Translations under genes and position numbers: made by a program
Part shown: one piece after another, positions 12,636 to 60,418 of the stretch
Layout of the letters: the number at the start of each line of letters is the position of its first letter
How positions within the stretch are numbered: the stretch's first letter is position 1
NCBI GenBank assembly: GCA_039720395.1
Contig: CM077833.1
Coordinates: forward strand, 5,409,036 to 5,473,035
Length of the DNA: 64,000 bases
Origin: Liquidambar formosana
Lineage: Eukaryota > Streptophyta > Magnoliopsida > Saxifragales > Altingiaceae
Direction of reading: 5' to 3'
Notes under the pieces: model-generated
Database searches by the model: none
The model's input: only the letters and a program-made list of their open reading frames with translations
Told to the model about the DNA's origin: nothing

Positions 12636-14420
12636 TTACCTGAAACTGGAAAGTACCTAGGACTAAAGGAAAGGAAAACACCGCAAAGTCTCTTGATTGC
12701 AAGTAGTCTAATTCCAATGACCCCTTTAATGCACTTTTACCAGGTATCCATTAAGTTCATTTCATGCATAATTATGCCCAACATGAAATGCAATAAACCA
12801 TAAAATGATTTTAATCAAATCATCTCCAAAATATGCTATTTAACCCATAATCAAATAACCTCATCATTATACCAAAATTATGATCAACAACATAAATTCC
12901 CATTATGATTATAGCTTTAAAATCATAATCGAAAATATCAATTAAACATGGAAATTAACCATAAAATCCATACATCTATACTCCATGGAATGTATAAAAT
13001 TAACCAAACTCATTAATAAACATATTTTCTAATTTATGTTATCAAATATCCAAAATTCCATTTCAAGATTTATTCCATAAATCATCTATACATATATTCT
13101 AAATTCCAAGAATAACAAATACTATGATAATATATACCATATTATCATGTCAATAGTTTTAACCTATGTAAATTGCACCTACCTCAACCCAATGTGTGGA
13201 AAATACAACCTTGTGTGTCGTGGATGTAAAATCCAAGCCCTAGCATGCACATGCAAACTCTAAATCCAAGCCCTAGCTCCCAAATGCCTTGGTTGATGAA
13301 GATAATAGAGGTTCCAACTCCAAATCACCATCAAATATCACAATATGCATACATAAACCCATGAATTGTAAGAATGAGATGATAAACCCTCAAAGGAGTA
13401 CAATCCCTAACTCTTAAGTGTGAGAAAATACCTCTAAAATGCAAAACGAATTGGTGAGGATGAACATCCATACCAAATCCCATGAAATCCAAGCTCAACC
13501 CACCAAGAGCAAGCTCTAAGAACACATGCATGAGCCCAAATAAGAACCCTAACTCCAAAATGTAAGAATGAAGCTCCCCCATGCCATTCAAGATTGAACC
13601 CTAGCTGGGAATAGGAGAATACCCAAAAACAAATAAAACCCATGTAAATTGAGGAGAGAAACAATTTCCTTCTCAACCAAACACCTGTTCTCTTTCTGGC
13701 CAAACCCGAGTGATATAGTTGACTACATGCAATGTGTAGTTGACTACACATTCTAGAATGCTAAAATTGACCCATGTAGTCGACTATATGAAAGGTGTAG
13801 TTGACTACATCATGAGTTGTAGTTGATAACATGTTACTTGTAGTCAACTACATCCCTTTCAACACATACCATGCCTTATATTCATTAAAAACATTTAAGT
13901 GAAACAAGAATTTTTACTTTAAGTTATTTAATGAAAATAAGCAAATAACCCCCCATTTGAATCCAAATAAAATATTAGAAAAATCAAATTCCCAATATAT
14001 CAAAATCTCATTTTTCAGTTTTAGTACAAAATCCGTCTCCCGACAGATTTTCCTAAAACAAACATGTGAGGAACCCAATCCAAACATGCTAATAAATTCC
14101 CATAAAATTATAGAAGTCTTATAATATTATAAACTTCCATTACCGCAAAAAATTATCTTTAAAAACAAAGATTTATGAAAATTCATTTTTCCCCAACACT
14201 TAGCCAAAATTTCAGCAGTTTGAACCCTTAAGTTGCAAATAAGGCCAAATGCATACTTAAAATGCTTGATGCATAAAAACAACCATCAAAACACATCCAA
14301 CATCATAATATCATACACATGCATTACCTATACATGAAGTCATCCGACAAATCAAAGGATTAACTACGTTAACCATATATTAAACCCTTAATACCCTATT
14401 TAAAAATTATGGGTGTTACA
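12636..14420 (-). mobile_element. LTR fragment of another family (TGTAACACCC type)
   Basis: The right end reads GGGTGTTACA, so on the minus strand the LTR starts TGTAACACCC, typical of plant Ty3 LTRs. The left end abuts the Tat 5' LTR directly, so the rest of this LTR is expected on the far side of the Tat element, outside the window. It contains no coding sequence. It carries the dyad array at 13714-13852. Confidence 0.65.
13714..13852. repeat. array of six TGTAGTCGACTACA-type dyads, 21-bp spacing
   Basis: Six 14-bp sites start at 13714, 13735, 13775, 13796, 13818 and 13839, giving steps of 21, 40, 21, 22 and 21 bp. Each is a full or near palindrome built on TGTAGTYRACTACA. One has the GTCGAC centre; the others have GTTGAC or GTCAAC, as expected from loss of a methylated CpG. 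Confidence 0.9.
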
Positions 14421-15644
14421 ATAGCAACAGGAAGTCATAATGAAAGCTAGGATATCACAAAGCAAGCAATGGACTCATAAGTAGCATAATCCAACTCATT
14501 CACAAGATTGGAACTCATACTAGAAGCTAACAAATTCATTTATGAGAGTTTAGAACTTTAAATGTAAGATTGGTTGAATCTTTGCTCACTTAGGTATCAT
14601 GGGCTTTAGATCATAGCACATCATGGGTAATAACTTAATAGAACCTAGTTTGTCTAAACAAAAAGGTCCCTAAGCCATTTGAACAAAATCTCAAGCCATT
14701 GGACTTATATTGCGAAATATGCATACTTTGAAATTTGGCATTTCGAACGTCTAAGTTTGTTACAGACATCCAAGTTGGCCTTTCAAATGACTATAAGTTA
14801 CGAACATTCATTGGTTTGTCTCTATTATTTTCAGACGATCATTTCATTTTAGACGTCCGAGTCTTTTTAGACGTCCAAGCCCAACCTTAGACATCCAAAA
14901 CATTTATATGCCCTTTACTTGAAAATATCCTTTGGAATTTTTATACGTCCGAAATCACTTTCAAACTTTTGAATCTATCGGGACAAATCATAACAGCTAG
15001 TTTTTTAAACGGTCATTTGAGCATTTAATACCCACCAAACTCGATTTCTTGGCATTTATTGCTACAAAATGGTCATATTGGACCCAAGGGCTATTTGTAC
15101 AAGGCTTAAGCTTATTTATGAGCAATTATTGAGCATCAAACAAGAGCATTCATTATCATCTCTTTCAAGCCCTATAAATCTCAAGTGAGTTTTTATTGTG
15201 ATCAATCAATAATTGAGTGAGCTTTTGCTATTATGTAATCTACTCTTTAAGAGAGCTTCTTGTACACACAAACAACTCAAATCATCATTGTATTAAAGGG
15301 TTGAGAGAACCCTAGATATTGTAGCACTTGAAGAGTGCACTTGTGCAAGTGTTGGTGAAGAACACTTGTGGTTGTAAAGGGTTTGATTTCCACTTGCAAA
15401 GAGATTGGTATAGTGGATTGGTGAATCCTTAAGCAAACTCTTGATGCGAGGACTTAGGCGAAGAGACCGAACTTTATTAATATCGTTTGCAATCTCTCTC
15501 TCTTAATTTCTCTATTGATTATCTTATTGCTTGTTCCTGAATTTATTTTTACTTGCAATAAACTAATTTTTAGATCGTATTTGATTTTATATTTAACTAA
15601 AAACCCTATTCACACTCTTTTAGGGTTGTTAACTTGGGATAACA
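14421..15644 (+). mobile_element. Copia (SIRE-like) LTR fragment, 3' part
   Basis: The 3' end is recognisable: a GAGGACTTAGGCGAAGAGACCGA region, a CT-rich block, then CCCTATTCACACTC, TAGGGTTGTTAACTTGGG and ATAACA at 15644. This order is typical of SIRE-type Copia LTR ends. No primer site follows. The start is not resolved: sequence at 14421 joins the previous LTR fragment. It contains a cluster of GACGTC-type dyads (14746-14895). Confidence 0.6.
14746..14895. repeat. cluster of GACGTCC-type dyads
   Basis: AACGTC or GACRTC cores have centres near 14748, 14767, 14836, 14854, 14872 and 14892; steps within the second group are about 18-20 bp. Flanks repeat as TTAGACGTCCRAG. A lone further copy (ATACGTCCGAAA) lies near 14943. 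Confidence 0.65.
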
Positions 15645-15932
15645 CTATTAAAGAAAAAAAGGCTTCTTGCCTTAGCATGGGTGTCGAGTTCTCAAAACTC
15701 ACTACCAGTTGGATCATGTTTTGGATGATTTGAATTAAAAGAAAAAAATTTATTACTAAAATGACCAAAATAGCATTAAAAAGCAACTTTTTCAACTTTT
15801 AATTTGAATAGTCCAAAACGGCATCGAATGGTGTCTAGCACCTCAGCAGGAAGGGAAATCCCAGAATTTTGTTTTCTTTTTAGATGGCTCGTACACGAGA
15901 AGAACAATAGACTCAAATTTGGACATTGTGTG

Positions 15933-18185
15933 ATGTTGCAGCCAAGAACACGCGCCCACTACCTTCTGTTCCGAGGCTTCAGCTCATGTAATCTTCCTAC
16001 AGTCACCTCCGAAGGCCATCATCTCCTCGAAAGGGTTCGCGTGCTCTGCATACGCGGTCAACTCAATGAAGCTCTCTCTCTGTTCTACACCCTCAGCACA
16101 CCACCTCCCTCCGCCCAACCCTATTCCGCACTCTTCCATGCATGTGCTCGTCACGGCTTCCTTGAACAAGGCCTAGCTTTACACCGCCACATGCTTGCCC
16201 ACAGCAACAAAAATAACCCGATCGACCTATTCACAACCAATCATCTTATTAATATGTATTGTAAATGTGGTTCTTTGGACTACGCCCACCGAGTGTTTGA
16301 TAAAATGCCACACAGAAACATCGTTTCGTGGACTGCTCTCATTTCGGGGTACGCACAACATGGCCTGGGCGGCGAGTGCTTCCGTCTCTTTTCGGATATG
16401 TTAGTGCACTTTCGACCCACAGAATTCGCCTTTGCGAGCGTGCTTAGTTCGTGTGGGAATGATCGTGGCCGGCAGATACATGCGCTTGCCTTGAAAATTT
16501 GTTACGATACTTATGTTTATGTAGCGAATGCTCTTATTACCATGTATTGCAGTAGTTGTAGTTATGGTGGTGTTAAGGGTGGCGGTGAAGATGAGGCTTG
16601 GAGGGTGTTCAAGACCATGGAGATCCGCAATATGATTTCTTGGAATTCAATGATTGCAGGATTTCAACTTCGTGGACTTGGGGTCAGAGCTCTTAATCTT
16701 TTTACTGAAATGCACCGTTCTGGAATGGGGTTTGATCGTGCCTCACTTCTCAGTATATTTTCTTCTTTATGTGGAAGCAATGATGATCTTGTCAACTTGG
16801 GTCTCAAGTGTTGTTTCCATCTACACTGTCTCACTGTCAAAATTGGGTTTATCTCCCAAATTGAAGTGGCGACTGCTCTAGTGAAAACTTACTCGAATCT
16901 TGGAGGAGACATTGGTGATTGTTACAGGCTCTTCTTGGAGACGAGTGGGTGTTGGGATGTTGTTTCATGGACTGGGATTATAACAGCATTTTCTGAACGC
17001 AACCCAGAAGAAGCACTCCTCCTCTTTTGTTGGTTGCGTCGAGAGGAGTTGGCTCCAGACAAGTATACTTTCTCAATTGTCATAAAGGCTTGTGCAGGCC
17101 TTGCAACTGAGCGCCATGCCTTGGCTGTTCATTTGCAGGTCATCAAAGCTGGGTTTGAATATGACATGGTTCTTGCGAATGCGTTGATCCACGCCTATGC
17201 GAGATGTGGCTCCATTGCTTTGTCAAAGCAAGTTTTTGATGAAATGGGGTTTCGTGATACAGTTTCTTGGAACTCAATGCTTAAGGCTTATGCCTTGCAT
17301 GGGCAGGCTAAGGAGTCATTGCACCTCTTTTCACAAATGAATGCCCACCCTGACGCTGCCACTTTTGTTGCCCTTCTCTCAGCATGTAGCCATGCTGGAA
17401 TGGTAAAAGAAGGAATTAAAATCTTTGATACCATGGTTGAAAATTATGGTATTTTTCCTCAACTTGATCATTTTGCCTGCATGGTCGATCTTCTTGGGCG
17501 AGCTGGGCGAATTCTTGAGGCTGAGGAGCTTATAAGCAAGATGCCAATGGAGCCTGATTCTGTGGTTTGGAGCGCTTTACTTGGAGCATGTAGGAAACAT
17601 GGTGAGACCCATTTGGCCAAGTTAGCAGCAGCCAAACTGCAGGAGTTGGAGCCTGAAAATTCATTAGGATATGTACAAATGTCAAATATATATTGCTCAG
17701 GTGGCAGTTTTGGTGAAGCGGGTCTAATTAGGAAGGAGATGAGAGGGTGCAGAGTGAGAAAGGAACCTGGTTTAAGCTGGATTGAGATTGGAAATTGGGT
17801 GCATGAATTTGCTTCTGGGGGCCAATGCCATCCGCAAAGAGAAGCCGTATATGCCAAGCTTGAAGGAATGGTTAGGCAGTTGAAGGAGATAGGTTATGTG
17901 CCAGAGACAAGCTCTGCTTTGCATGACATAGAGGAGGAGCACAAAGAGGAGCAATTATACCATCATAGCGAGAAGCTAGCTTTTGTGTTTGCCATAATGA
18001 ATGCAGGTAGTTTGCATTCTGGTGGGGGTGTGATAAGGATTATGAAGAATATCCGTATTTGTGTGGACTGCCATAACTTCATGAAGTTAGCATCAGATCT
18101 TGTTCAAAAAGAGATTGTTGTGAGAGACTCAAACCGTTTCCACCATTTTAAAAATAGGGTATGCTCATGCAATGACTATTGGTAA
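15933..18185 (+). CDS. PPR protein, PLS class with E and DYW domains (At1g71420-like)
   Basis: Intronless, 750 residues from ATG 15933. I chose this Met because MLQPRTRAHYLLFRGFSS looks like an organelle transit peptide and the length matches Arabidopsis At1g71420 as I recall it. An in-frame ATG at 15828 would add 35 residues. PLS repeats fill about residues 50-560 (for example NIVSWTALISGYAQHG, DTVSWNSMLKAYALHG). E/E+ motifs follow, with the PG box EPGLSWIEI at about 611. The DYW deaminase domain ends the protein: HSE at 678-680, CVDCH at 710-714, then HHF, CSC and the terminal DYW. These are zinc and catalytic residues of the cytidine deaminase fold, so the expected role is C-to-U editing of mitochondrial or plastid RNA. 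No break is seen. The editing target cannot be read from the sequence. Similarity to At1g71420 is judged from memory. Confidence 0.93.
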   Translation: MLQPRTRAHYLLFRGFSSCNLPTVTSEGHHLLERVRVLCIRGQLNEALSLFYTLSTPPPSAQPYSALFHACARHGFLEQGLALHRHMLAHSNKNNPIDLFTTNHLINMYCKCGSLDYAHRVFDKMPHRNIVSWTALISGYAQHGLGGECFRLFSDMLVHFRPTEFAFASVLSSCGNDRGRQIHALALKICYDTYVYVANALITMYCSSCSYGGVKGGGEDEAWRVFKTMEIRNMISWNSMIAGFQLRGLGVRALNLFTEMHRSGMGFDRASLLSIFSSLCGSNDDLVNLGLKCCFHLHCLTVKIGFISQIEVATALVKTYSNLGGDIGDCYRLFLETSGCWDVVSWTGIITAFSERNPEEALLLFCWLRREELAPDKYTFSIVIKACAGLATERHALAVHLQVIKAGFEYDMVLANALIHAYARCGSIALSKQVFDEMGFRDTVSWNSMLKAYALHGQAKESLHLFSQMNAHPDAATFVALLSACSHAGMVKEGIKIFDTMVENYGIFPQLDHFACMVDLLGRAGRILEAEELISKMPMEPDSVVWSALLGACRKHGETHLAKLAAAKLQELEPENSLGYVQMSNIYCSGGSFGEAGLIRKEMRGCRVRKEPGLSWIEIGNWVHEFASGGQCHPQREAVYAKLEGMVRQLKEIGYVPETSSALHDIEEEHKEEQLYHHSEKLAFVFAIMNAGSLHSGGGVIRIMKNIRICVDCHNFMKLASDLVQKEIVVRDSNRFHHFKNRVCSCNDYW

Positions 18186-19252: not shown

Positions 19253-19345
19253 TCAATCTTGGATCAATTTGATTTTTAGTATGCATGACCTACATGAGAG
19301 GTTATCTAACTCAATGGTGAGTTTTGTAAACTATGAGTCACAGAT
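19253..19345. repeat. single arm of the foldback MITE found at 32540-32930
   Basis: The stretch containing GGATCAATTTGATTTTTAGT and ATGCATGACCTACATGA matches the right arm of the MITE in the mannanase intron (about 32770-32866). Only one arm is recognisable here. Confidence 0.6.
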
Positions 19346-24326: not shown

Positions 24327-24328
24327 AT

Positions 24329-24340: not shown

Positions 24341-24353
24341 AATTGTTTCTGGG

Positions 24354-26505: not shown

Positions 26506-26510
26506 TCTAG

Positions 26511-31752: not shown

Positions 31753-32951
31753 TTATGGTTTACTCAACGTTTGTTCGAGGGTTGTCATTTTATTGGAGTG
31801 TTGAGTAATGACGCGGCTTGTTGATGGATTTTGCGATAAAACAATTTCATATCCATCGTCATATGACTCCATCCCTTCCGCCATAATTTGCCAAACCAAG
31901 CCGCCAGCCATGGTTCCTCCACTTGTCGCGAAGTAGTAGATGTTGGAGTAAATATAATTCAAGAATGAATCCCTAGCATTTATACTGTACCCTGGATCTT
32001 TCTTCGATTTTCCAAATTCGGCGAAAACCAATGGCTTCTTTATAATTGTCCTCGAGTCTGTCCAATGACTTGTCATCCAATTCTGCATGAATGCCATTTG
32101 CGAGTCATCGTTCTGTCCAGACAGCCTGTTGAACAAGTGCATGCATAACTCGTTAATTATCTTCACTGTATATATATATATAACATGACGAATAAAGTTC
32201 CTCAATGAGTGATACTGAGTATAAATTAACGTGGATGGAACTAACCAAATATCGGGATATGCATGAATGGTAGCAAAATCGATTTCTTTAACAAGATTAT
32301 TGCTAATAAAATCTGTGCCAACTTGGTAACCCGGATTGTATTGCTTCCTGTCTGGTATTGAGTCACCATAGAAACCTTCCATGCCTATCTCCAACAAGTG
32401 TTTATTGTCAATAGATTTAACATAAGACGCCATCTCTTGGACCCATCCCTGTCATAATTGAACATACATACAAATATGCCAATTAAAATTCCAATATGTT
32501 AGTATGAGAATTTTGCCATGACATATATATATATATATATATAGTCCCTTTCTTATGAAGTTAACCTAACCTAACTTTACGTTAGGTCACCTTCTAAAAC
32601 TCTATCTCTAATTTTTATTTTTCAAAACCAACTGTTTGGATTAGATCTAATTCATGTGAAGGTCATGCATACCAAAAATCAAGTTGATTCGAGATTAAAA
32701 ACTACTTCATGCATAAATGTCCAAAATGAGCGATTGTCATTAATTAAAAAATGTAATTTTTGGATTATAAAGCAATCAGTCTCGGATCAACTTGATTTTT
32801 AATATGCATCACATACATGATAAGATTATTTAATCCAACGGTTGGTTTCGTAAAATATGAATAACATATAGTTTTGAAAAGTGACCTAACGCAAAGTTAG
32901 ATTAGGTTAACCTCATAAAAAAGAGACTATATATATATATATATATGAGAC

Positions 32952-41161: not shown

Positions 41162-41858
41162 ATTGTTAAAGCTGCAATAGGAGTAGCTTTAGCAAGAGAA
41201 CCTAAAATGGAAAAAACATCATGTTTTGTTGTAATTGGATATGTTATGATGTTGGGGTTTGTTTTGTTGGTTGTAAAATATTTTAAAAGTATATAATTTG
41301 GGCTATTTTTTAGCTTTTATATGATATGCTAAAATTTTGGGGTAATGTTGCATTCAAATGGGCTAAAGAACCTTGCACTCTGTCTGGCACTAAAGGTTTT
41401 AATATTGTTTTAAAAAGTTTTGGAAAATTTGGCATAATCCTATCTATAAACTGGACTTCCCAAGTTATCGACTTATCAAACCTATAGAAAATACACATTA
41501 TAAATTGCATTTTGTCTTCCTCTAGCTCATATTGAAGCTGATTAGGTAAATACATAATACATGCTCATAAATTGAATTCTTATTTCTATAAATAATGTTG
41601 CTCATTCACATAATGTATCAATGTAGTATCATCCTATCCCAATTTGGAGAGCACATCCAAACAATATCACTAGTAGCAAAATATAGTATGACACTCAAAA
41701 CTAGTGTGACAAAAAGTATCAATAAAAGCAAAACATAACATAATGTCTAAAACTAGTAGCATCATAAGCTTCAAAATGTGCTACATATCCATGATGTCCA
41801 AAGTGCTAGTAATCAAAGCTGGTGCCAACGCTTGGAGGAGGTATTTGGTAGTCATCGC

Positions 41859-43904
41859 TGTGGATGCTGGAAATCAACTCGGGGGAGAATCGAGTTTCTG
41901 TTCTACTCTTAAAAGGGTTCAAAAAGCAAAGGAGTGGTCACCTTATTTTTAAGGTACGAGGAAACCATTAAAAGATTTGTTTTTAAAGAAAAAACAAGTT
42001 TGACTCCATTTAATGGAAAATATGCAAGTCTTGAACCAAAAACAAGGATTCGGGGGCTAGGTTACGAAATGGGAAGGTTCCGAGCTACGGCCCGCAGGCA
42101 CCCATTTCGACCTATTAATTGGTCTCATTTATTGATTGGGCTTAATTAATTTCAACCATGCAATAACTAAAAATTATGAAAATTAAAAGATAAAAACTAA
42201 GCTAAGTTGGACTTGGGCTCAAGTGAGCAGCCTATGTATTTCTAACGAAGATCAAAGTCCACATAATTCGAACAATCATGTTGGGGGAAAGAGTTTCATT
42301 CCTCTTAGGACTTTATTAGAATCTAATCCATAACCAAACACTTGTTTCTTTTTAAAAAAAAAAAAAAACAACTCACTTTGAAAGAAACAACTTTAGTTTG
42401 AAAACTTGTTTGATTTAGGATCAAAACCCTAATATAATCCTATGAATAATAAAACTCATGGGAGCATACATCATCACATAAGCAACTACATCACGACAAT
42501 AGAGTTTAGAGATTATACCTGACAGAATTGAGGCAGAGTTCTATTTGCAACCTCGGGGTTTTTAAGTTAAAATTGGTAGAGCTTCGATGCTTTCTAAGCT
42601 TTATGATGGCCTCAAGGGAGGGAGTCGCAAGTTGGGCAGAGCTTCCACGCCTTTAAGCTTTAGAATGGGTCGTAAGCTAGATGGTACTAATAGGAATGTT
42701 CCCCATTAACTATTGAGCCAAAGCTCTTCTTAGAATGAGACTCAAGTGAAGGGATACTAATAGGAATATATGTTCACCCCACACTCAAGAACTCAAGCTT
42801 TTCATTTGCTTAGGAAAACTCTACTAAGACTTGGTGGTCAATGAATGAAGAGAGGACCCCTATTTAAAGTAAGAGGTGGGTGGAATGAATGGCCAAGATT
42901 GGATCTAGCTAGGGATGATCCAAGGGCTTTAAAACACTCACAAGAGCTGGTTCCTATCTCAAACACCTCAAAAATTTGGAGGAATTTCGAATTCTAGCAA
43001 GAGAAGGAGTCTATTGGGCTCAAACTAGAGTAAAAGACCGTCAAAGGCCAATAGGCACCCTTGGTGGCCGTTTGGGCACCTTGGGTAGCTGTTTGGCCTT
43101 CCTTTGTGGCCATTTGTCCTCTCTTGGTGGCCATACGGCCAGCAGTAGCTTATTTAGTGCATTTTTTACTCCTTTTGTGCACTTTTACCCTTCTATGCTA
43201 TGTATTTGGCTCATTTTAAGTCCAAATTCATTGATTTTGGATTTAAAATGACCATGGCTCAATTCTCTACCTAAAATCTAATTAAAAAAATTCTAATTGA
43301 GCAACACTTGGTCAATTAATCAAGGGTTAAGCCCATATGGCTTATAGAGATCAATTAAGGCCTACCGGGACAATATTAGGGTTTGAACCCTAATGGAGTC
43401 CTAGTTGCAATCAAACTCTCCCAAAAATAATTCCAAGCATTAATACACCTTAATTAAGATTCAATTGATATTAATGAAGCATTAATTGGACTCAATTGGA
43501 TCAAATTAAGAAGCAATTATAAGAAAGATCAACGAACAGAGTCAAACCGAGCCTACTTTGGACCATCCTTAAGCAAATCATCTCCAAACTTAACCAAATT
43601 TTACACCAAGCCTACAAATGACATCCTAAGGTCATTAGGATCATCCCGAGAAGAATTTGGTGAGAATGGGATGTCAAATAAAAATTATGCAAGTGAAATG
43701 ACATAAATGCTTTTCAAGTTGCAAAAGTTCTTATTAGCTATCAAGACTTAACCAAATTGAACCCCGGAAGATACCATGGATTCTTTGGGATGTATAGAGC
43801 TTAACTAAAAAGGCTTGGTGTTCAAATGATGCAATTCTCTACATGTGATAATGCTCCTAATGCGGAAAGGTCAAATGTTAGGGGGTGAAAATGGGGTGTC
43901 TATA
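41859..43904 (-). mobile_element. Tat-type solo LTR (family E), copy 1
   Basis: 2046 bp, plus-strand ends TGTGGATGCTGG and GGGGTGTCTATA, flanked by a perfect 5-bp duplication ATCGC (41854-41858, 43905-43909). No internal region. Lies inside the DNA transposon. The terminal CA has become TA. It shares the AGGCACCC block (about 42103) and CTACGTA-type hairpin region (42231-42274, degraded) with other Tat LTRs. Confidence 0.88.
43046..43140. repeat. array of five GGCC-NNNN-GGCC-type dyads, 20-21-bp spacing
   Basis: 12-bp sites at 43046, 43066, 43087, 43108 and 43129, with centres 20, 21, 21 and 21 bp apart. The last, GGCCATACGGCC, is the most symmetric; the others are partly decayed (for example GGCCGTTTGGGC). 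Confidence 0.75.
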
Positions 43905-45521: not shown

Positions 45522-45725
45522 TGTGTACGCATCTATGCCAGTTGCATACGCATCCTTCCTCAACCTGCACTTCTGTTAGCCCTGTTTCAATAACCCATAT
45601 GCCTTCTGGATAATAACGATTAAGAAATAGGAAATCCCTAACTATTTTCATGCAGAAGATCCTAATGAATAGAAGACTATTTGCTCCAATGGGGTGCTCA
45701 CGCACCTGTGACCAATGCGTATGCA
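45522..45725. repeat. two pairs of TGCGTACGCA-type dyads, 21 bp apart
   Basis: TGTGTACGCA (45522) and TGCATACGCA (45543) are 21 bp apart; TGCTCACGCA (45695) and TGCGTATGCA (45716) are also 21 bp apart. Confidence 0.85.
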
Positions 45726-46290
45726 ACCCGTAAACATATCCCAGATTTTAGAAAACGGAAAGCAAACTAAACTAACCCTAGGACTAAATATCAAGAACAC
45801 TACAAGCAGATAAAATTACTACAAAATCATGAGATGGAATATTTGCCTAACATATCCAAATTCACATCATTAATCGATATTAACTACGGTAAGCAAGCAG
45901 CTGGTCCTATTCAGATTTAACCTACTTAACTATCATGGCATGATATATAATGATTATACAACTTATTCATCCTAAACATGCATTCTAACATCATATTTCA
46001 CCCATAATCATGCATAATGAGATCAAATAAACAAAAGAGAAAAAGATAAAGAAAGGTGATTTTTGTCACTTTGCAACAGCAGAAACTTCAATCACGTTTT
46101 TGGGTATGAAAATGTTGGAATTGGACAAATCTCGTGAAATACAAAGTTGTAGAGAATTGAATTATCTTTCTAAGAGAACCAATTTTGTCCAATTCCAACT
46201 TCAGAATCAAAAGTTATGATTAAAATATGATTGCTGATTTTAGAAAACTACTGTTGAATTATGACGAATTTCACTCTCTAACAACCCTAC

Positions 46291-48376
46291 TATGGACGTC
46301 GGAAATCGACTAAGGGGGAATCGAGTTTCTGTTCCACTTGTAAAAGGGTTTCAAAAACAAAGGAGTCGCCACCTCATTCTTAGGGTACGAGGAAACCACT
46401 AAAAGATTTGTTTTATAAAAACAAATTTGACTCCATTTAATTGGAAAATAGGTAAGTCTTGAACCAAAAATGAGGGTTCGGGGCTAGGTTACGAAATAGG
46501 AAGGTTTTGAGCCACAGCCCATAGGCACCTATTTTGCCCGATAAATCGGTCTCATTTATTAATTGGGCTTAATCAATTTCAACCATGCATAACTAAAAAT
46601 TGAGAAAATTAAAAGATAAAAACTAAGCTAAGTTGGACTTGGGTTTAAGTGCGCGGCCTACGTATTTCTGACAAAGATCAAAGTCTACATAGTTCGAACA
46701 ATCATGTTGAGGGGAAGAGTTTCACTTCTCGTAGGACTCTATTAGAATCCAATCCATAATCAAACACTTTATTTTGAAAATAACTTGCTTTGAAACAAAT
46801 AACTTTAGTTTAAAAACTTGTTTGATTTAGGATGAAAACCCTAATAAGATCCTATGAATAATAAAACTCATGGGAGCATGCATCATCACATAAACAATTA
46901 CATCATGGCAATGGAGTTTAGAGATTATACCTGACAGAATTGAGGCATAGTTCTGTTTGCAACCTCGGGGTTTTTGAGTTGAAAATTGGGCAGAGCTTTT
47001 GCGCTTTCCAAACTTTAAAATGGCCTTAAGGGAGGGAGTCACAAGTGGGGTAGAGCTTCCGTGCCTTCAAGCTCTAGAATAGGTCGCAAGCTAGAGGGTA
47101 CTAATAGGAATGTTCCCCACTAACTATTGAGCCAAGCTCTTCTTTAGAATGAGTCTCAAGTGAAGGGATACTAATAGGAATGTTCACCCCACACTCAAGA
47201 ACTCAAGCTCTTCATTTGCTTAGGAATACTCTACTAAGACTTGGTGTAGAATGAAGGAGGAGAGGACCCCTATTTAGAGTTAGAAGGTGGGTAGAATGGA
47301 TGGTTTGGATTTAATCTAGCTAAGGATGATCCAATGGCCTAAAATCAATCTTAAGAGATGACATTTATCTCAAATCTAAGTGATAATTATCAAACATTAT
47401 CAAAAAGATTGGAAAAATCCAGATTAGTTGAAGAGATAATGTCAAAATTAAGAGATAAAGCCAAAAAATAAAAAGGATTGGTGACCAAGTGGACACCTCA
47501 CTGTCTGTTTGGCCCTTTATGGCATGAAAACGTTGGAATTGGAAAATTTTCATTAGACACAAAGTTGTAGAGCTTTAAAATACCTTTTAAAAAGACCAAT
47601 TTCATCCAAATCCAAATTTTGAGTAAAAAGTTATGGCAAAAATACGAAATCTGGTTTTAAAGCATATTTTGGACGAATCTTGTTCATTTTAAGTCCGAAT
47701 TTATCCATTCTTTTTGCAAAATATTTTTAATTCAATTTCCCACATATTAAGACTCAAATTAAGTCAAAATTGATCCACAATGGGTTAATTGGCCATAACC
47801 CAAGCAAATACGGCTCACTGGGGTCCGAAATGCAACTAAATGTAAAATAAGAGTTTGTATTCTGATTGAGCCATGCTTGCAACCAAAACCTTTTGGAAAT
47901 CATTTTATTCATTTGAAAACAATAATTAAAGCTCAATTAACACCAATGTGGCCATTAGTTTAAAAATTGGGATTGAATTAAAAGTCAATTTTGAAGAAAA
48001 CCGACAAACGGATCTCAACCTTGCACACTATGGACCATCCCTAACCAAATCAGTTCCAAACCTTACCAAACTTTAAATCAAGCTTACAAATCGCATCTTA
48101 AGGTCATTAGGATTATCTTGGGATGAATTTGGTGAGAATTGGACATCAAATAAGAATTATGCAAGTGAAATGACATAAATGCCTTCCAAATTGCAAAAGT
48201 TCTTATTAGCTATCAAGACTTAACCAAATTGAACCCCGGAAGATACCATGGATTCTTTGGGATGTATAGAGCTCAACTAAAAAGATTTAGTGCCAAAATG
48301 ATGCAAAAACCTACATGTGATAATGCTCCTAAGGTGGAAAGGTGTGGAATTAGGGGATGAAAATGGGGTGTCTACA
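46291..48376 (-). mobile_element. Tat-type solo LTR (family E), copy 2
   Basis: 2086 bp, plus-strand ends TATGGACGTCGG and GGGGTGTCTACA, flanked by a perfect CCTAC duplication (46286-46290, 48377-48381). It aligns with 41859-43904 over most of its length but has lost most of the dyad array (only one TGTTTGGCC-like half site near 47505). Nested in the family B LTR. Confidence 0.9.
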
Positions 48377-48795: not shown

Positions 48796-48861
48796 TGCGT
48801 ACGCATCCCAAGTGGTTGTGTACGTATGAACGCGTCCGTACCCCTTACTGGTGCATACGCA
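48796..48861. repeat. group of TGCGTACGCA-type dyads
   Basis: Perfect TGCGTACGCA at 48796; degenerate sites centred near 48821, 48835 and 48856 (TGTACGTA, CGCGTCCGTA, TGCATACGCA). Steps 21, 14 and 21 bp. Confidence 0.8.
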
Positions 48862-49319
48862 GCAGGGCTGAATGAAAAATGGCTACAAACTGAGGATTTT
48901 TGCTGTGACTTCATTAGCTCATTTGGGATCGCTTCGTATTTGTCAAGACGAATAATAAACCTCATCATCGGGATTAAAAAAGCAATTTAGAATTAATAGG
49001 TGGTCCAAAATGGGGTGTCTACAGTTGCCCCTTCTTTCGATGTTACTCACCTGACAAGTTACATCGTAAGACTTAATAGACGACACTAGTTTGACCACCT
49101 TATGATTCTAAATCAAGGTTTTTGAAAATACCATTTGTTAGGGTCGGATTAGGAATCACTTAATTTACCTACTTACTCCTTGCGGAGATCAGACCCATCG
49201 TAGTTCGAAAGTAACATGACTTCATCTAGGCATTGATGAAGATAAATAAGAAGAATTACTTCAGATTTTGAGAAATATTGACCTTGACGAAGGCCACGAG
49301 TGTGAAACCCAGCCCTAGA

Positions 49320-49605: not shown

Positions 49606-49607
49606 GA

Positions 49608-49870: not shown

Positions 49871-49914
49871 ATTAAAGACCATATTAGGGTGCCCGACCCA
49901 ATTCTAAATCCTAT

Positions 49915-52245: not shown

Positions 52246-52395
52246 TGTAGACACCCTATTTTGTACCACCTAATAATTCTGAATCCTTTTTATCCCAATG
52301 ATGATAATTATTGTTCGACCTAAAGCACGTGAAATGATCCCGAGCTGGCCTACAGAATCACAGCAAGACTTCAGCAAAATTACACAAAGAACTTG

Positions 52396-52457
52396 TGCGT
52401 ACGCATCCCCACTGGGTGAGTACGCTATGCGTACGCAATACTTGGGTTGCGTACGCA
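52396..52457. repeat. four TGCGTACGCA dyads in helical phase
   Basis: Centres at 52400.5, 52421.5, 52432.5 and 52452.5 (steps 21, 11 and 20). Three are perfect TGCGTACGCA. Confidence 0.9.
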
Positions 52458-53139
52458 CCTTACCTTATTTTTTTGAAACCGCATTTCCTTGTCTGTGAGG
52501 ACTGTCCAACCCGAGAGTTAGAGTCCATTTGGGATGGGAAAGAGAGAGCAATCCGGGGAGGGACTCCCTAGGAACCCTAGTAAACCCTATAAATATACCA
52601 TTATAATTTTGTAGGAGGGGTTCAAAAAATATAGGAAAAAAATAAGAGGAGGAAACGACTCTTGCATATTAGGAGAAAGAGAATTGCTTGAAGGAGAGCT
52701 GTGATTCCAAAGGATTGCAAGGGAGAATTGATCGAGGAAGGTGAACTAACCTGAGGGTGATCGTTTAATCTTTCGTTCTAGTTTACAAAATAAGATTGTG
52801 CATATAAGGGGTATAATCGCATGTGTAAGATACCAGAAATATTCTTTATGAATTCTGTATGATTAGGAATTAATATGATAATGTGAAGCATGCATAAATG
52901 ATTATATTATTGGGTTATTATACATTATGATGTGCTAGGGGGGTAGGTTAAATTTGAATAGAACTAACTGCTTGCTTACCGTAGTTAATATCGATTAATG
53001 ATGTTAATTTGGATACGTTAGGCAAATATTCAAATCTCATGATTTCGTAGTAATTATCTGCTTGCAGTGTTCTTGATATATAGTCATAGGGTTAGTTTAG
53101 TTTGCTTTCTATTTTTTGGAATCTGGGATGCTTATGAGT

Positions 53140-53170
53140 TCCGTACGCATTGATCACAGGTGCGTACACG
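53140..53170. repeat. pair of GCGTAC-type dyads, 21 bp apart
   Basis: TCCGTACGCA (53140) and TGCGTACACG (53161), the counterpart of the pair at 45695/45716 in the other LTR of this family. Confidence 0.8.
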
Positions 53171-53206
53171 CCTTATTGTAGCAAACAGTCTTCTGTTCAC
53201 TAGAAT

Positions 53207-53334
53207 CTTTTGCATGATAACAGTTAGGGTTTTTTATTTCTTAATTGTTGTTGTTCGAAATGCATGTAATCTTCTGCATGATAACAGTTAGGGTTTTTTA
53301 TTTCTTAATTGTTGTTGTTTGAAATGCATGTAAA
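53207..53334. repeat. 64-bp tandem duplication
   Basis: 53207-53270 and 53271-53334 are nearly identical (GCATGATAACAGTTAGGG then TTTATTTCTTAATTGTTGTT). Confidence 0.9.
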
Positions 53335-54726
53335 TTATTAGAATAAGATAGAAACCCTAGAATTACATTTATGCATTACACCACATGATATAACCCTTGG
53401 GCATGCAAAAATACTGCATGAACAAGATTCTAATCATGTATATTAATTAATAGAAGCAACAATACATGATAAAAATGTATGCTTTAACATGCGATAGAGC
53501 TATTTCAAGCAAAACCCTAATTTCAGCATAATAAAAATAGAGGTATACCTATGGTTCAACCTTCTTATCATTGTAGAGACTCCTTTATCCTCTTGTCAAT
53601 GAATTGAAACACTCTCCTTCAAGCCTCCACACAAACCCTAGCTCTCCTTTAGAACTCTCTCTCTCTACCTCTCACTTAAAAATTAAGTTAAATGCCTCAA
53701 AATGGCTCTAGTTTCCCCCCTAATGTTGAAACATGGAGGGGTATTTATAGGGTTTGAGTGAAATCAATCAATGGTTGGGATTAAAACCCTAAATATCAAT
53801 CCAAGGGTCATTAGATACTCTCTTGGGGCTCAAGGCACTCAAATAGTTTTGAAAAATAAGATAGAATGGTTGCTGGAGGTGGAAAATCCGTCAAAAATTG
53901 GAAAGAGATAAAAAAAATCCTAAAAATTGATGGAGTCCCTTGGATGACCACCCATGGCTGGGCGGCTAATAGCTTGGGCCCAGGTGGCTAGCCGCCCAGG
54001 CCTAGGTGGTCACCTGAGGGCCTTGTCAGGTCTTGCCTTATTTGAGCCCTTTCAGCTTCTAAATGTGTTTCATATGCCCAAATTAACTCCGAATTTGACG
54101 AAACGAAAGCCAAAACGACCATGCTTTGAAAAGGAATATGATTTGAGGCATTTTAGGGCAAAAATACCTAGCCATGGCTGCAAGGTTAGGTTTTACAAAG
54201 GCAGCAAACTGTTATGCACCACCGTCGCTAAGCTTAGGTATGCACACATGGGTTGCACCAAATGCTTTCCAATTCAAAATTCAACCTTCCAAAACATCTT
54301 TAGGAATGAAATTAAGGCTAATTAAAGTCAAATGAGTGAGAATTGAGTGAAAATCATGAGCCGATTTGAGCTAACCCGAAGTGGGTCTCTTAACCAACCT
54401 AAACTATATCGAGCCATTTTAATCTCGAACCATCAATTCATTAAATTGAACCCATAAATACCTCGAATATATCCATATAAACTCTAATTAGCGATTTGGA
54501 GATCATTTCAAGGTCAAATGGAAAGTTTGTGACCTAAAAGACGATTGCCCCTCAAGTCGTAAAAGTTCTTATTGGCCCTTAAGATTAACTCCAAATCGAA
54601 CCAAAATTCATACACATTATCCTTGAGACCCTAGAAACTCAATGCAAAAGACTAGACTAAAAAAGGAAACAAAAATGCACATAAAATGACAAACCTTAGC
54701 TAAGGTGGCAAAAATGGGGTGTGACT
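53335..54726 (-). mobile_element. Tat-type LTR (family C) fragment
   Basis: Matches the 5' half (minus-strand sense) of the LTR at 57762-60418 and ends GGGGTGTGAC. It lacks the part with the GGAGTCGCCACC block. It also matches 12230-12635 closely. It carries a four-dyad array (53944-54013). Confidence 0.82.
53944..54013. repeat. array of four dyads, 20-21-bp spacing (family C, copy 1)
   Basis: Centres near 53947.5, 53968.5, 53989.5 and 54009.5. Site 3 is GGTGGCTAGCCGCC; site 2 has decayed (GGCGGCTAATAGCTTG). Confidence 0.8.
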
Positions 54727-55598
54727 CCTCCGAATCCCTAGTTTCTTTGGTTTCCAAAAAGACTATGTCGCTACCCCAAAAAAGGATGGGATGTTTCCCT
54801 TCCTAAGTTGGGATGACCCCAGGTCATTCGTTTCTAGTGGGTGGTGTTAAATAAGATGGATTCAGTTCAAGGGCGCCTTGACTATCCTAGGAATGCGAGC
54901 ATATCTAGAATTATCAAGGCTATGGAGTCGCTACCAATCAGGGGTTTGAGGACGCGATTGCACATCCTATAGTTGGTTAAAAGAATGGGGTCATCTGAGA
55001 TCCCAAAATAAGCCCATCTGAGGTCTTATCATCAATAGGTCTATCTGAGGGCCTACTGAAAATTGAATGACTCCTAGTGGTTTGTGAGACTAAGATTCGG
55101 GGTAAGGGGGTTTGGTTACGAGTGGGGAAGGTGTGAGGCACCCCACATCACCGATTGGAAACCAACGGTTCTCGATTTTGATGATGTTTCTTATTAAAAT
55201 CCTGTTTGGTATTGTTGATTTCCTATATGAACAATTTAACATAGAATACCCTTTTGAAGGGTGGAGAATTCTGTTATTTTTTAAAAGAGATCCTTAAAGG
55301 CATTTGGAACAAAGTCCTTTTTTGAAAGTGGAGATGTTTGAAAAAGTATGCCTTAAGGTTGTGTGAATGAGAACCTTTTTTGAAACGACCACAAATTTGC
55401 CTTCCTTCTCAGGGGTATTTTAGATCAAATTGATTAACTCCAAAGGGGAGCATCTCTACCTTGCAATGGTAAAAATCAATCCTTTATGAAAGGATGGAAA
55501 TGGAAATGATGTGGGTCCATTTTCAAAGAATTAATATCAAGTGCGAACCTCTTTAGGATCTTGAGGAAGCCTGAGACTTTTGAAGTCGATGGGCTAGG
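54727..55598 (-). mobile_element. LTR fragment of another Tat family
   Basis: No coding. It has a GGAGTCGCTACC block (54929) and ATTCGGGGTAAGGGGG followed by GGGAAGGTGTGAGGCACCCC (55095-55145), the 3'-end signature shared by the other Tat LTRs here. Ends are not resolved. Confidence 0.55.
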
Positions 55599-57761
55599 TG
55601 TGAACCCCGAAAATTGGGCCCACAAGGGTTTGGCAAAAAGATTGTTCATGGGAAAAAGAAAACAAAAGGAGTCGCCACCTTATTTTTTAAAGGAAACACG
55701 GAAAACCCTAAAACAGTTTGTTTTTAAAAAACAATTTGAATGACTCCATATTTAAAAAGGAAAGGCAAAAGCAAGTCTTTTGGAAACCAAAAAAATCGGG
55801 GATTCGGAGGCTAAGTTATGACATGGGAAGGTTCTAGACAAAGCCTATAGGCACCCATGTCACCCTTTCGGTTTCTCGGTTTATTTGGGCTAAATTAAGA
55901 TCTTTTCCATACAAAAATCAGCAAATATCATCACAAGACAGCATGCATATCATATATTCCATTCATCCTTCCATGCATAATAAGCAAATAAAAACAGAAA
56001 ATAAAGAAAAGAAAAAAGAAACCTAGGATACTTGGATCCTAGAACGGACTTGAGCCTCACAAAGAGCGCCTACGTACCATGCAACGAAATACATGGATCA
56101 AAGTCCACGTAGTTCGATTAGAAATAGGGTTAAATCCTAATACAAACCTATGGTAAAAACCCTAGGTTTCCTTATTTGAAAAAGAGAATTGAATAAACCA
56201 AGTTTGAATTTAGAAAGAATTCCACAAAATGGAGACTTTGGTAAAAAACCAGAATTTTATTGGTTAAGGAAACCCTTGATTAAGACCATAGATTCATATT
56301 AAAAACTAACCCTAGGAGGGAGAAGAGAGAGAGTTAAAAAGGAAAGGTGAATTAGGGCACCTTCACACCCGTTTACCTGAGCGCAATAGCTCCAAGCATT
56401 AGCAATTTCAAGCAATGGCAACCTTATTTGCCATAGGACAATTACCACACCTATTTGCACCCTTACACGTGCTCAAAATCATGCAAACACAATGATATAT
56501 AAATCTGGATAGAATAGTATTATGGCCTAAAATCATCCACTAAACATGCTAACAGCAAAAACAACGAATAATAATAAGCTCTAACACAATCCTAAAACCA
56601 TATCATGCATAAAAACCCTAGAACGAACTATATGAATGCAAGAAATATCATAGTCAGTCTATATGTAAAACATATACAGCAACTATGAAGAAAAATCAAT
56701 AAAAAAGCCTAAACTAATATGTTGTATGAAACTATCCTAAAACAAGAACACTAAAAACCCTAAACTCACAAACATGCTTAAAAACACACAAAACAAACTT
56801 CTAAACATGCTAAAATCAAACTAAACAGAACCTAAATCATGGATATTAACTAACTAAAGCAATAGAACATGATAAAAATCCTAACTTTAACATGCAATGA
56901 CGCTACTCTAAAATAAGGACAACAGAAGCACTAGAATCACAAACATGCTTAAAAACACATAGAACAGCCCTAAAGCAAGCTAAACTCATGATAAACAGTA
57001 GGTATTTCATGTATATTAACTAGATAAAGTGTTAATACATGATAAAAAAAGCTACCTTTAACATACAATAAGCCTATTCTATAAGAAAACCCATATTCAG
57101 CATAAATAAGGAGTGAGGTTACCTTAAGAAGAAGCTTCCTTGCTGCTGTAGAGACTCTCCTTTTGACTTATGGATGATTTGAATCAATGTTCTTCAAGGC
57201 TACAGCAGGAACTCCAGCTCTCCTTCAAGTCTCTCTCTCTTATTTTCTCTCAAACACTCATGTTTTAAGGCATAAAGTGGCCTCCTTTGTGCTGAAGCAT
57301 AGGGGGTATTTATAGACTTCAATTAGGATTAATCAATGGCTGGGATTAAAACCCTAGAAATTAATCCAAGGGCTATTAGAGACCCCCTTGGGGCTTAAGT
57401 AACTCAGAAGTTACCAAAAATTAGAAGGAAACTCGTCTAAAAGAGCCCAAATACGTCAAAATAGGCAAGAGTCCGCTTCAGCAAGGAGTTAGAGTGAAAA
57501 TAGGAAAGTGGTCTCGGGTGACCACTAGGGCCTGGGTGGCTAGCCACCTGGGCCCAGGCGGCTAGCCGCCCGAGGCTGGGTGGTCACCCGAGCCCACTCC
57601 GAATTTTTGCCTATTTTTGACTCCTAATGCTTCTAGAAGTGTTTCAGGGGGCAAATTAAGTCCGATTTTGATGAAACAAAAGCCAAAACGACCGTGTTTC
57701 GATGAGGAATACATTTTTGAACATTTTAGGTGAAAACCACTAACCATGGGGGCATGGTTAG
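55599..57761 (-). mobile_element. Tat-type LTR (family C), interrupted by the next element
   Basis: Starts TGTGAACCCCGAAAATTGGG at 55599 (LTR 3' end) and aligns with 57762-59880, then stops exactly where the next LTR begins. The missing ~540 bp should lie to the right of that younger element, beyond the window. The last five bases, GTTAG, would be one copy of its target duplication. Confidence 0.82.
57518..57587. repeat. array of four dyads, 20-22-bp spacing (family C, copy 2)
   Basis: Centres at 57521.5, 57541.5, 57563.5 and 57583.5. Sites 2 and 3 are perfect palindromes, GGTGGCTAGCCACC and GGCGGCTAGCCGCC. Sites 1 and 4 are mutual inverted repeats (CTCGGGTGACCAC and GTGGTCACCCGAG). Confidence 0.93.
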
Positions 57762-60418
57762 TGTGAACCCCAGAAAACGCGCGGCCCACAAGGGTTTGGC
57801 AAAAAATACAGAGGTGAAAGACAACAAACAAAAAGGAGTCGCCACCTCATTTTTTTAAGGAAAAGAGGAAAACCATAAAAATGTTTTATTTTCAAAAACC
57901 ACATGACTCCATTTTGAAAGGAAAGGCTAAGTCTTTAAAACCAGAAAATGGATTCGGGGGCTAAGTTACGATGTGGGAAGGTTCTGGGCAAAGCCCATAG
58001 GCACCCACATCGCCCGAGTTGGTCTCTTAATTTGATTGGGCTAATTTAATAACTTAATCACATGCAAAACAGTATCAATCAATAAAATACAGCATGCATA
58101 ACATATATCCCATCCATCCATTTCATCCATGCATAATCAAACAAAGAAAATAAAATAAAACAGAAAAAAGAAAAGAGAAGAAAAACCTAGGATACTTGGA
58201 TCCTAGAATGGACTTGAGCCTCAAAACGAGCGCCTACGTACCATGCAGCGAAATAAATGGATCAAAATCCACGTAGTTCGAAAAGAATAGGGTTAAATCC
58301 TAATAGAGAGTTATGGTAAACCTTAGGTTTCCTTCCATAGTGATTTTCAAAGATAAAATGATTCTTAATAAAAAAATCCAATAGAAGATATAAACTTTTA
58401 AAAAGGGGTGGAAAGAAGCCCTAGAGTTGACCATATCCCTCTATTAGAGAATAACCCTAGGAGGGAGAAGAGAAAAGAAAGGTTAAGAAAAGTGAATTAG
58501 GGCACTTCATACCCTACTTACCTTGTGCAATTTACTCCAAGCAATATCAACCTTAAGCCATAGCGACCTTATTTGCAATAAGGCAACTACTGCACCTGTT
58601 CGCACCCTTACACATACTCAAAGTATATGAAAAAGGATAACATAAGAATCTGGATAGAATAGTATTAAGGCTCAAAGTCATCCACTAATCATGTTATCAA
58701 CAAAAACAGTGAATAAATAGAGACCTTAATGCAACCCTAATCTCATGTCATGCATAAAACCCTAAAAATCCACTACATGCATGCAAAAACTATCATAGTT
58801 ATTCTATATATATCATATATATAATAACCATGAAGAAAAACAGAAAACAAAACCTATTCTATCATGCTATAGGAAACTTATGTGAATTTAGGGTTATCGA
58901 AACCCTAATTTCACAACTATGCATTAAAGCATATGAAACAACCCTAACACATGCTCAAATCATCATGAATATCATTCATATCATATGTATTAAATAACAG
59001 GAGCATCAACTCATGACAACAATCACAGCGAATAGACTATATGAACTATGCATGATTTAAGAAGACAAAAAGAGTAACGCTTTCAAATCCTTAGTAAACT
59101 AAAGATTATCAAGCACATAGAACCATGAATCATCTTAAAATCATTCATATCATATCACAAAAGCATGGAATTAACCTAACATGTGGAGTTACAACATGCA
59201 CTAGAACTATCATAGAAGAAGAAGGAGAAGGAGAAGGAGAAGACCTATATTCAGCATTCAAAAAGAGTGCTTACCTCTTGTAGAACCTCCCTTGCCTTCA
59301 AAGTCCTTGTTCTCTTGCTTGCTTAGGGTTGAAAAGCCTTCTCTTGATGTCCTTTTAGCTCTCCAAACTCGTAGCTCCCTCTCTCTCTAAGTGTAAAGTG
59401 CACTTATGGCCCCCTATGTGCTGAATATCATGTTCTTTATATAGAGAACTAACCCTATGAACCAATAGGCTAAGATTAATTCATTAAACAATGATCCTAG
59501 GGCTATTAGAGACTCTCTTGGTGCTCAAACAACTCAAACTTACACATTCCTAAGAGAAAACAAGTTGTAATGGCGGAGGAAACCGTCAAAAGAGAGAGAG
59601 AAGAGGTAGAATCCCACTTAAAGACGGATTCCCTCGGGTGACCGTATGGGCTTGGACGGCTGACCGTCTGGGCTTGGACGGCTGATCGTCTGCCCCAGAT
59701 GGTCACCCAAGGGCTCCCATCAGCATTCCTCGGTTAGACACCTTCGCCTTCTGGAAGTCTTTCGGGGGTCAAACTAAGTCCGATTTTGACGAAATAAAAG
59801 CCAAAACGACCGTGTTTTGAAGGGGAACACATTTTTAAGCATTTTAGGACAAAAATCCTTAACCATGGGTGCATGGTTAGGTTTTACAAAGGTGGTTAAC
59901 CATGGTGCTTGACCGTCGCTAAGCTGGGTTTGTACACAAGGTCGAACTGAATGCTTTCCCAATCGAAATTCGATCTTTCTAAACACACCTAGGATGTAAA
60001 TAAATTCCAATTGAAGTTAAATGAGAGAAAATTGGTTGGGTCTTATGAGTCGATTTTGAGCAAACCAATAAAGGGTCTTTTAGCTAACCTGAACCACTAT
60101 GAGCTGAATTGATCTTAAACCATTAATTCATGAAATTGAACCTATATATAGACTCTATGTACTCATAATAACTCAAAGGAATGACTCAAGATTCATTTCA
60201 AGGTCAAATGGAAGATATACGGCTTAAAAGACGATTATGCCCTTAAAGTCGCAAAAGTTCTTATTAACTATCGAAATGAACTCCAAATCACTTCAAAATT
60301 CATACACATGATATTTAATGCGATAGAAACTCAATGCAAAAGACTAGACTTGAAAATAAAATAAAAACCTACATGAAATGATGGCCTCAAACTAGGGTGA
60401 TAAAAATGGGGTGTGACA
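57762..60418 (-). mobile_element. Tat-type LTR (family C), complete, 2657 bp
   Basis: Plus-strand ends TGTGAACCCCAG and GGGGTGTGACA. To its right, on the minus strand, is AATGAGGGGCTTC next to the LTR start, consistent with a polypurine tract, so this is the 3' LTR of the minus-strand element filling 60419-64000. It contains the tRNA-Arg-like GGAGTCGCCA (57835), the CTACGTA hairpin (58233-58281) and a dyad array. Confidence 0.88.
59638..59706. repeat. array of four dyads, 20-22-bp spacing (family C, copy 3)
   Basis: Centres at 59641.5, 59661.5, 59683.5 and about 59703. Site 2 is GACGGCTGACCGTC and site 3 GACGGCTGATCGTC: relative to copy 2 the arms changed in pairs (GGCGG/CCGCC to GACGG/CCGTC). 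Confidence 0.92.

Follow-up and report, generated by a model that had tools for sequence, protein, structure and literature searches.

The 64,000-nt stretch of the Liquidambar formosana genome analysed here (CM077833.1, positions 5,409,036-5,473,035; referred to as the window) contains long terminal repeats (LTRs) of several gypsy-type retrotransposon families that carry arrays of short palindromic sites, or dyads. According to our analysis, these phased dyad arrays are a true, conserved cis-element architecture, and a step of 20-22 bp dominates in all four families despite their different motifs. The families were labelled by motif as A (TGTAGTCGACTACA type), B (GGCCNNNNGGCC), C (TGCGTACGCA) and D (GGCGGCTAGCCGCC). 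A sequence-only reading of the window had listed site clusters for the four families, and the clusters of all four are present. Genome-wide counts given below refer to the 718-Mb assembly.

Dyad arrays in the window

The array of family A comprises six TGTAGTCGACTACA-type dyads on the reverse strand (13714-13852), with steps of 21, 40, 21, 22 and 21 bp by site start (13714-13839) and with several TCGA cores altered to TTGA or TCAA. The start region of the same LTR, TGTAACACCC, is read leftward on that strand at 14400-14421. Within the 39-40 bp gap of the array lies TTCTAGAA (13752-13761), itself a dyad, which we take to resemble the core of a heat-shock element. Family B is represented by a decayed copy of its GGCCNNNNGGCC-type array in the 20-22 bp register (43046-43140, reverse strand).

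Sites of family C occur in several places. A site search placed four of them on the reverse strand at 45522, 45543, 45695 and 45716 (45522-45725), forming two pairs with a step of 21 bp each; the downstream part of the LTR beginning at 52246 has its match in the adjoining segment, 45599-45951. The same search found a C-type array at 48796-48861 (reverse strand; step of 21 bp at 48796-48817) on the promoter side of an LTR starting at 49023, whose terminus TGTAGACACCCCATTTT occupies 49007-49023 on the reverse strand and corresponds to TGTAGACACCCYATTTTG, with 1870 exact matches in the genome. On the forward strand, the LTR with the C-type terminus TGTAGACACCCTATTTT (52246-52262) carries four TGCGTACGCA-type sites 151 bp into the repeat (52396-52457; steps of 21, 11 and 20 bp at 52396-52448), followed 3' by a TATA-like box, CTATAAATATACC (52588-52597), and by a second, downstream array of two sites 21 bp apart (53140-53161, within 53140-53170).

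The family D array at 53944-54013 (reverse strand) consists of inner GGCGGCTAGCCGCC dyads 22 bp apart (53961-53983), outer sites of the form GGTGACC/GGTCACC and a GGGCCC-centred dyad midway between the inner sites; a TATA-like box, TATAAATACC, lies past the array on the same strand (53740-53749). A second copy, found by site search as well as by the detector described below, is located at 57518-57587 (reverse strand; inner sites at 57535-57557, again 22 bp apart). A D-related array, whose inner dyads take the variant form GACGG-NNNN-CCGTC and are likewise 22 bp apart, occupies 59638-59706 on the reverse strand, where a D-related LTR terminus, TGTCACACCCCATTTT, is found at 60403-60418. An LTR remnant at 11880-12635 (reverse strand) matches the first 400 bp and a later part of a D-related LTR with no array between them, as would result from deletion of the array region.

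We applied a strict detector that calls an array where similar dyads stand in a row of three or more with steps of 15-30 bp, each dyad having a minimum of 5 out of 6 arm pairs. The window yielded four calls, and no call came from any of 20 dinucleotide shuffles. One call (35122-35167) is AT-rich simple sequence. Another (35847-35888), absent from the sequence-only reading, corresponds to three TGCGTACGCA-like dyads with steps of 21 and 20 bp at 35842-35893. Of the clusters in the window, the detector missed that of B, those listed for C and two of the three of D; these copies are decayed. Since most window arrays thus fall below the rule, copies elsewhere in the genome are the real test. A search for TGCGTACGCA-like sites with at most one mismatch found 12 in the window, compared with a mean of 0.26 and a maximum of 2 in 50 shuffles; whole-window histograms of dyad distances were too noisy for use.

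The GACGTC cluster of a copia-type LTR (~14834-14897), which the sequence-only reading had added to the same pattern, consists of imperfect sites ~18-20 bp apart and is unsupported as the same phenomenon. Other features of the window comprise an 801-aa open frame on the forward strand (15780-18185), by eye similar to a pentatricopeptide-repeat protein with a DYW-type end, a 232-aa open frame on the reverse strand (31753-32451), by eye similar to a glycoside hydrolase (mannanase-like), and a tandem repeat at 60725-61392 with a step of ~78 bp and shifted copies that are 80-94% identical.

Genomic copies of the four families

The dyad spacing of 20-22 bp recurs in genomic copies of every family (26 copies of A, 12 of B and 20 of D, and 30 loci of C). 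For family A, 28 loci including two duplicates yielded 26 distinct copies, 25 of which carry six sites, with steps of 21 (77), 22 (26), 39 (20) and 40 bp (6). Pairs of copies differ at 5.1% of site positions, 8.6% of spacer positions and 10.8% of positions outside the array, and CpG positions show a transition difference in 24% of comparisons within the array compared with 44% outside (28 rows, the two duplicates among them, with non-independent pairs). The 139 array columns contain only 1 of the 45 distinct indels, compared with 44 in the other 697 (26 copies, 836 columns; binomial P 0.003). Low site divergence and the scarcity of indels therefore indicate that family A has retained its sites as well as their mutual distances.

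Judged by its LTR ends, family A appears to be a lineage separate from B, C and D. In another copy (L009) the LTR starts with TGTAATACCC and a TATA-like box, TTTATATATA, follows ~100 bp past the array. The LTR ends, the primer binding site TGGTATCAGAGC and the polypurine tract region look Del-like; the copy read is too short for pol, with only ~1.6 kb of internal sequence and no visible protein gene. The two LTRs of L009 (contig C9 of genome G000) are identical over 2681 bp, marking a very young insertion, and L010 (G000, contig C6) is part of a series of LTRs spaced at 4.31 kb and sharing 99.9% identity over 4085 bp.

Family C was sampled independently of its array through the LTR terminus TGTAGACACCCYATTTTG, which has no genome match when reversed. 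The sample consists of the first 30 matches in order, all on contig C1, and is thus not random. The strict detector found an array within 1.5 kb of the LTR start in 17 of the 30 LTRs, compared with none in 29 shuffles of the sample and a single LTR in one further shuffle, so that shuffled LTRs, the control proposed at the outset, yield almost no arrays; in the 1.5 kb preceding the LTR start, 6 of the 30 loci have an array. Allowing one mismatch, at least one TGCGTACGCA site is present 142-245 bp from the start in 26 LTRs and at least two in 19; a TATA-like word at 300-430 bp is found in 19. The motif is common to seven of eight LTR sequence clusters, and the four LTRs lacking sites make up the remaining one. 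Five exact TGCGTACGCA cores precede the TATA-like box in seven LTRs (L036, L038, L043, L047, L049, L051, L052; steps for example 21, 21, 20 and 21 bp). A second zone at 840-1400 bp holds at least two sites with at most one mismatch in 21 of the 30 loci, and a five-site second array with steps of 21, 17, 21 and 21 bp recurs in L035, L036, L038, L047, L049, L051 and L052. The description of the arrays as lying in the middle of LTRs thus does not suit the first C array, which sits close to the LTR start; the second zone lies further inside.

Among family C steps of up to 60 bp, 114 of 132 measure 20-21 bp, the rest being 19, 23, 31, 34, 38 and 41 bp. Across the genome, 7463 pairs of TGCGTACGCA with a gap of 0-30 bp were counted, and in 6274 the gap is 10-11 bp, which places the centres 20-21 bp apart; the reversed pattern (0 pairs) and the gap distribution itself were the only controls. 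Among the 50 pairs listed, 41 are at 20-21 bp, two at 31 bp (three turns) and the rest at 13, 19, 34, 36, 38 (two) and 40 bp.

The 12 copies of family B have GGCCNNNNGGCC-type steps of 21 (28), 20 (9) and 22 bp (9), with 18 and 42 bp once each, so that 46 of 48 steps measure 20-22 bp; their units repeat with part of the spacer included. The 20 copies of family D show steps of 22 (20) and 21 bp (1), two copies having a single site, and in many of them the GGGCCC-centred second dyad lies midway, so that centres alternate every 11 bp. One D copy (L088) has one extra 22-bp unit and another (L081) one fewer. In one D-related copy GACGG/CCGTC stands in place of GGCGG/CCGCC; the change covers the two halves of one inner site and almost does so in its neighbour. 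Such symmetric change alone is no proof of selection, because a dyad is its own reverse complement and its halves share their mutational context.

The four families had been described as unrelated. The LTR starts of B, C and D are alike, however, and copies of B and of D have LTR flanks in common. In a pair of B copies (41858-43902 and 46290-48374) the flanks align at 85% and 79% and the middle does not align; D copies likewise share parts of their flanks with unaligned middles. Seen in these alignments, the array is a fast-changing module in otherwise related LTRs.

An Ogre-type element with antisense genes

One family C element, bounded by the LTRs L051 and L052, was read as two internal pieces (L060 and L061). 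Its LTRs are 99.6% identical over the 1.42 kb compared and start 16.3 kb apart. The order of domains is gag, protease, reverse transcriptase (RT), RNase H, second RNase H and integrase, with RT_RNaseH in L060 and RVT_3 followed by rve at the start of L061. By the published rule, a second RNase H between RNase H and integrase marks Ogre of the Tat clade, where this element fits, and holds for Retand as well, and a plant mobile domain (PMD) is present in 57% of Ogre elements (PMC6317226). The extra PMD reading frame of Ogre is also found here. The coding remains at 4382-10750 of the window (reverse strand) belong to the same lineage as this element (57-67% identity in RT and 59% in integrase, main pieces).

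Two antisense genes, X and Y, lie 3' of pol; their gene and intron models were drawn by eye, without transcripts. Gene X (L061, 3259 down to 2010) is predicted to encode a DUF7745/PMD protein with one intron, its PMD match being below the Pfam cut-off (30.1 compared with 34.9 bits). Gene Y (L061, from 6496 down) is predicted to encode a PMD protein that begins MAPKRQRQHG, with several introns; its exon matches PMD at 1.4e-22 and, weakly, DUF1985 at 7.7e-7, below the cut-off (29.6 compared with 35.1 bits). DUF7745 has 118 hits in the genome, and the predicted antisense gene is widely intact, because ~75 of the hits are listed without an internal stop, many in a 431-residue frame (counted by eye). 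Structure prediction for a PMD piece from a five-row alignment gave a mean pLDDT of 54, and a search of solved structures with protein P0004 returned two matches that are not significant (E 0.36 and 0.68).

The piece from gag to RT (L060) contains no TGCGTACGCA. In L061 there are 19 GCGTACGC cores, and the pol part holds none of them: six lie ahead of the TATA-like box of gene X (steps of 20, 21, 20, 20 and 21 bp), seven precede that of gene Y (20, 21, 31, 69, 20 and 21 bp) and six lie within predicted intron 1 of gene Y (20, 21, 20, 20 and 21 bp). Exon 1 of gene Y and the preceding site block are also found upstream of four 3' LTRs (L035, L038, L042 and L052, the last being the same element as L061), and L055, from a second LTR cluster, has two sites at the position of that block. 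The locus L031 matches an annotated sweetgum PMD protein (P0006) at 93-97% and has one site in an intron, and pair positions near 5.35 and 7.72 Mb on contig C1 repeat the gene Y intron block and the gene X block. The window itself holds no matches to gene X or Y. The proposition that every PMD gene carries an array was rejected, as none of 13 other PMD loci does; PMD therefore does not imply an array.

Interpretation and known systems

We posit that the arrays are docking platforms for a dimeric regulator at the promoters of the elements and that in the Ogre group this factor is likely their own PMD protein, a reading to which we assign a probability of roughly 0.45. That they form a phased protein platform of whatever kind seems quite probable. 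In this view each dyad would be occupied by a DNA-binding dimer, and a step of two turns would align adjacent dimers along the same helical face; for Ogre-type families the factor would be a PMD protein predicted antisense 3' of pol, and binding would activate or de-silence the element. Protein binding, a cooperative dimer, identity with the own PMD/DUF7745 protein and activation or de-silencing are all inferred. The dimeric factor had already been suggested by the sequence-only reading, and family-specific dyads phased at about two DNA turns are in keeping with it, as is the three-turn step of 31 bp that also occurs. The arrays precede TATA-like boxes in LTRs and at both antisense genes, and they are absent from the gag-RT piece. 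The CpG within the dyads of A, C and D suggests that binding may sense or counter CG methylation.

An element-encoded factor is favoured because the layout and the protein family parallel VANC, discussed below. By this analogy, Ogre-type elements might run a VANC-like, self-encoded anti-silencing or activator circuit, in which antisense PMD proteins would bind phased arrays in the LTR, in their own promoters and in the intron, one protein would co-activate the sense transcript and its own gene, and families would switch motif and keep the phasing; we advance this circuit only tentatively.

Several observations weigh against the PMD-bound platform. Steps of 17 bp and of 39-40 bp do not fit whole turns. 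PMD and DUF1985 are domains without a known DNA-binding mode, and the DUF1985 match and the PMD match of gene X are those below the cut-off. The 13 PMD loci without an array include seven of host type and six of other classes, and the one D element read (L062) holds a decayed antisense PMD remnant (3.8e-12) with no internal D-type array. Family A, another lineage by its ends with ~1.6 kb of internal sequence, would be served by a factor that is not its own PMD as far as seen. Finally, a plain protein-site model does not predict the hairpin stability added by C and B spacers or the pairing of the second spacer base described below.

The best surviving alternative is that host transcription factors bind, each family having captured the site of another host factor and multiplied it in phase as a strong enhancer. 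It would accord with the differing motifs in seemingly unrelated lineages (A compared with B, C and D) and with family A arrays in a copy without a visible protein gene; when Sirevirus repeat motifs were compared with lists of plant cis-elements, mainly stress-factor sites were recovered, according to the available part of that paper (PMC2829016). An LTR enhancer would not require, however, that a single motif also mark both antisense promoters and an intron of one element, and the unrelated array middles of related LTRs would follow more readily from a factor that changes along with its element. Putative matches of motif to factor are a GCC-box-like site for D, a GTAC core for C and a W-box-like site (TTGAC) for decayed A. 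We consider host factors rather unlikely as the main explanation.

A further alternative is that the arrays act as hairpins in RNA or single strands, with a role in packaging or in small-RNA silencing, there as a target or a decoy. Dyad arrays fold well as RNA by construction, and for the LTR array of L052 a single long stem with few interruptions is predicted. Spacers were shuffled with the sites held fixed, taking a core of 12 or 14 bp. Many C arrays are more stable than their shuffles; with the 12-bp core, those of L035, L038, L047 and L052 give z -2.5 to -4.1 on the promoter side and z -2.8 to -5.7 downstream. With the 14-bp core the downstream arrays remain at z -2.7 to -4.7, whereas the promoter-side arrays drop to z -0.6 to -2.1. 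All four B copies show an effect (z -2.6 to -3.9) and L059 keeps z -3.5, as opposed to none in L058, in family A (z -0.4 to 0.9) or in the gene X promoter array; D is weak and not clear. Permuting the order of spacers makes no difference. Among 31 unique C spacers, some from related copies, the second base is complementary across the spacer in 65% compared with 28% after shuffling, and the first base in 61% compared with 49%. Hairpins need no register of 20-21 bp before TATA boxes or in an intron. The RNA-level option raised by the sequence-only reading thus keeps a footing in C and B and loses it in A and at the gene X promoter: because the spacers add stability and C spacer bases pair across, a hairpin, or a fold-back origin of the arrays, stays a rival for these two families, improbable as we judge it overall. 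A maize Sirevirus paper of 2016 reportedly dealt with palindromes and small interfering RNA.

Neutral tandem repeats, in which slippage duplicates a unit of 20-22 bp and the spacing is simply the unit length, would agree with the gain and loss of 22-bp units in D, with the B units that include part of the spacer and with the family-specific tandem repeats of Retand 3' of pol, whose function is given as not known in the text available (PMC11963269), but we regard them as very improbable, as C spacers have diverged with sites and spacing retained, indels in A avoid the array and its sites diverge half as fast as the flanks, the step is equal with different motifs, and arrays stand at promoters and not in the gag-RT piece.

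Were the PMD-bound platform true, the PMD proteins of many Ogre-type gypsy elements, described in the accessible text as of undetermined function (PMC5418596, PMC6317226), would gain a candidate function, and self-encoded anti-silencing would be a trait of LTR retrotransposons as well as of DNA transposons. MAIN and MAIL1, host genes that share this domain and function in silencing (PMC5418596, PMC7156037), would be placed in an evolutionary context. A single design would cover VANC targets and Sirevirus RM boxes, with motif arrays of family-varying sequence and constant layout.

Phased dyad arrays in gypsy LTRs are undescribed in the titles and abstract beginnings of the literature searched, most subscription papers lying outside it. 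Plant LTR elements weakly prefer palindromes as insertion sites, which concerns targets and not LTR arrays (PMC6911290). Del/Tekay elements have 5' CpG islands, and Del LTRs resemble the present ones in that their 5' half holds a regulatory region that changes fast (Cruz et al., 2014, PMC4029996); the islands are reported there for monocot groups and not eudicots, and the words "palindrom" and "dyad" do not occur in the text available. Retand, a Ty3/gypsy element of the Tat group, has antisense TRP28 open reading frames with predicted DNA binding and, like the C element, family-specific repeat arrays between pol and the 3' LTR; unlike in the C element, the domain is TRP28, and the accessible sections describe no dyads or LTR arrays (PMC11963269).

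The claim that no named system describes such arrays does not hold, as two come near. One is VANC, whose proteins carry DUF1985 and DUF287 (PMC5735166; PMC10398659). By the passages available, VANC binds, as seen by chromatin immunoprecipitation sequencing and electrophoretic mobility shift assay, arrays of a short motif upstream of genes and in introns of its own VANDAL, and it causes loss of methylation (Hosaka et al., 2017, PMC5735166). Its targets likewise are element-specific, non-coding arrays that differ between related elements and gain or lose units (PMC5735166; PMC10398659). Unlike the present elements, VANDALs are DNA transposons, and in the text at hand the VANC motif is not described as a dyad ("palindrom" occurs 0 times; PMC5735166); the proteins predicted here are PMD/DUF7745, whereas VANC is DUF1985.

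Closest to our arrays, and of the same kind, are the RM boxes of Sireviruses, palindromes that occur many times per LTR and precede its TATA box (Bousios et al., 2010, PMC2829016). Shared features are element specificity, position in the upper half of the LTR, CpG content and copies before an additional gene, there ENV-like. A palindromic motif upstream of an LTR TATA-like box was found in C (site in 26 and TATA-like word in 19 of 30 LTRs) and in the D copy of the window, and extra copies before an additional gene were found in L061 at X and Y, the gene being PMD-like and not ENV. RM boxes belong to Ty1/copia elements, with at least 8 copies and a CGG-CCG core in all but one (PMC2829016), and the word "spacing" appears only in the reference list of the text available. 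Here, by contrast, the C element has the gypsy domain order, the CGG-CCG core is present in D (GGCGGCTAGCCGCC) and absent from A, B and C, which have other cores, and Ty3/gypsy elements combine a register of 20-22 bp with arrays at antisense PMD genes. We regard the arrays as corresponding, in gypsy elements, to the RM boxes of Sireviruses; their connection with antisense PMD genes is new.

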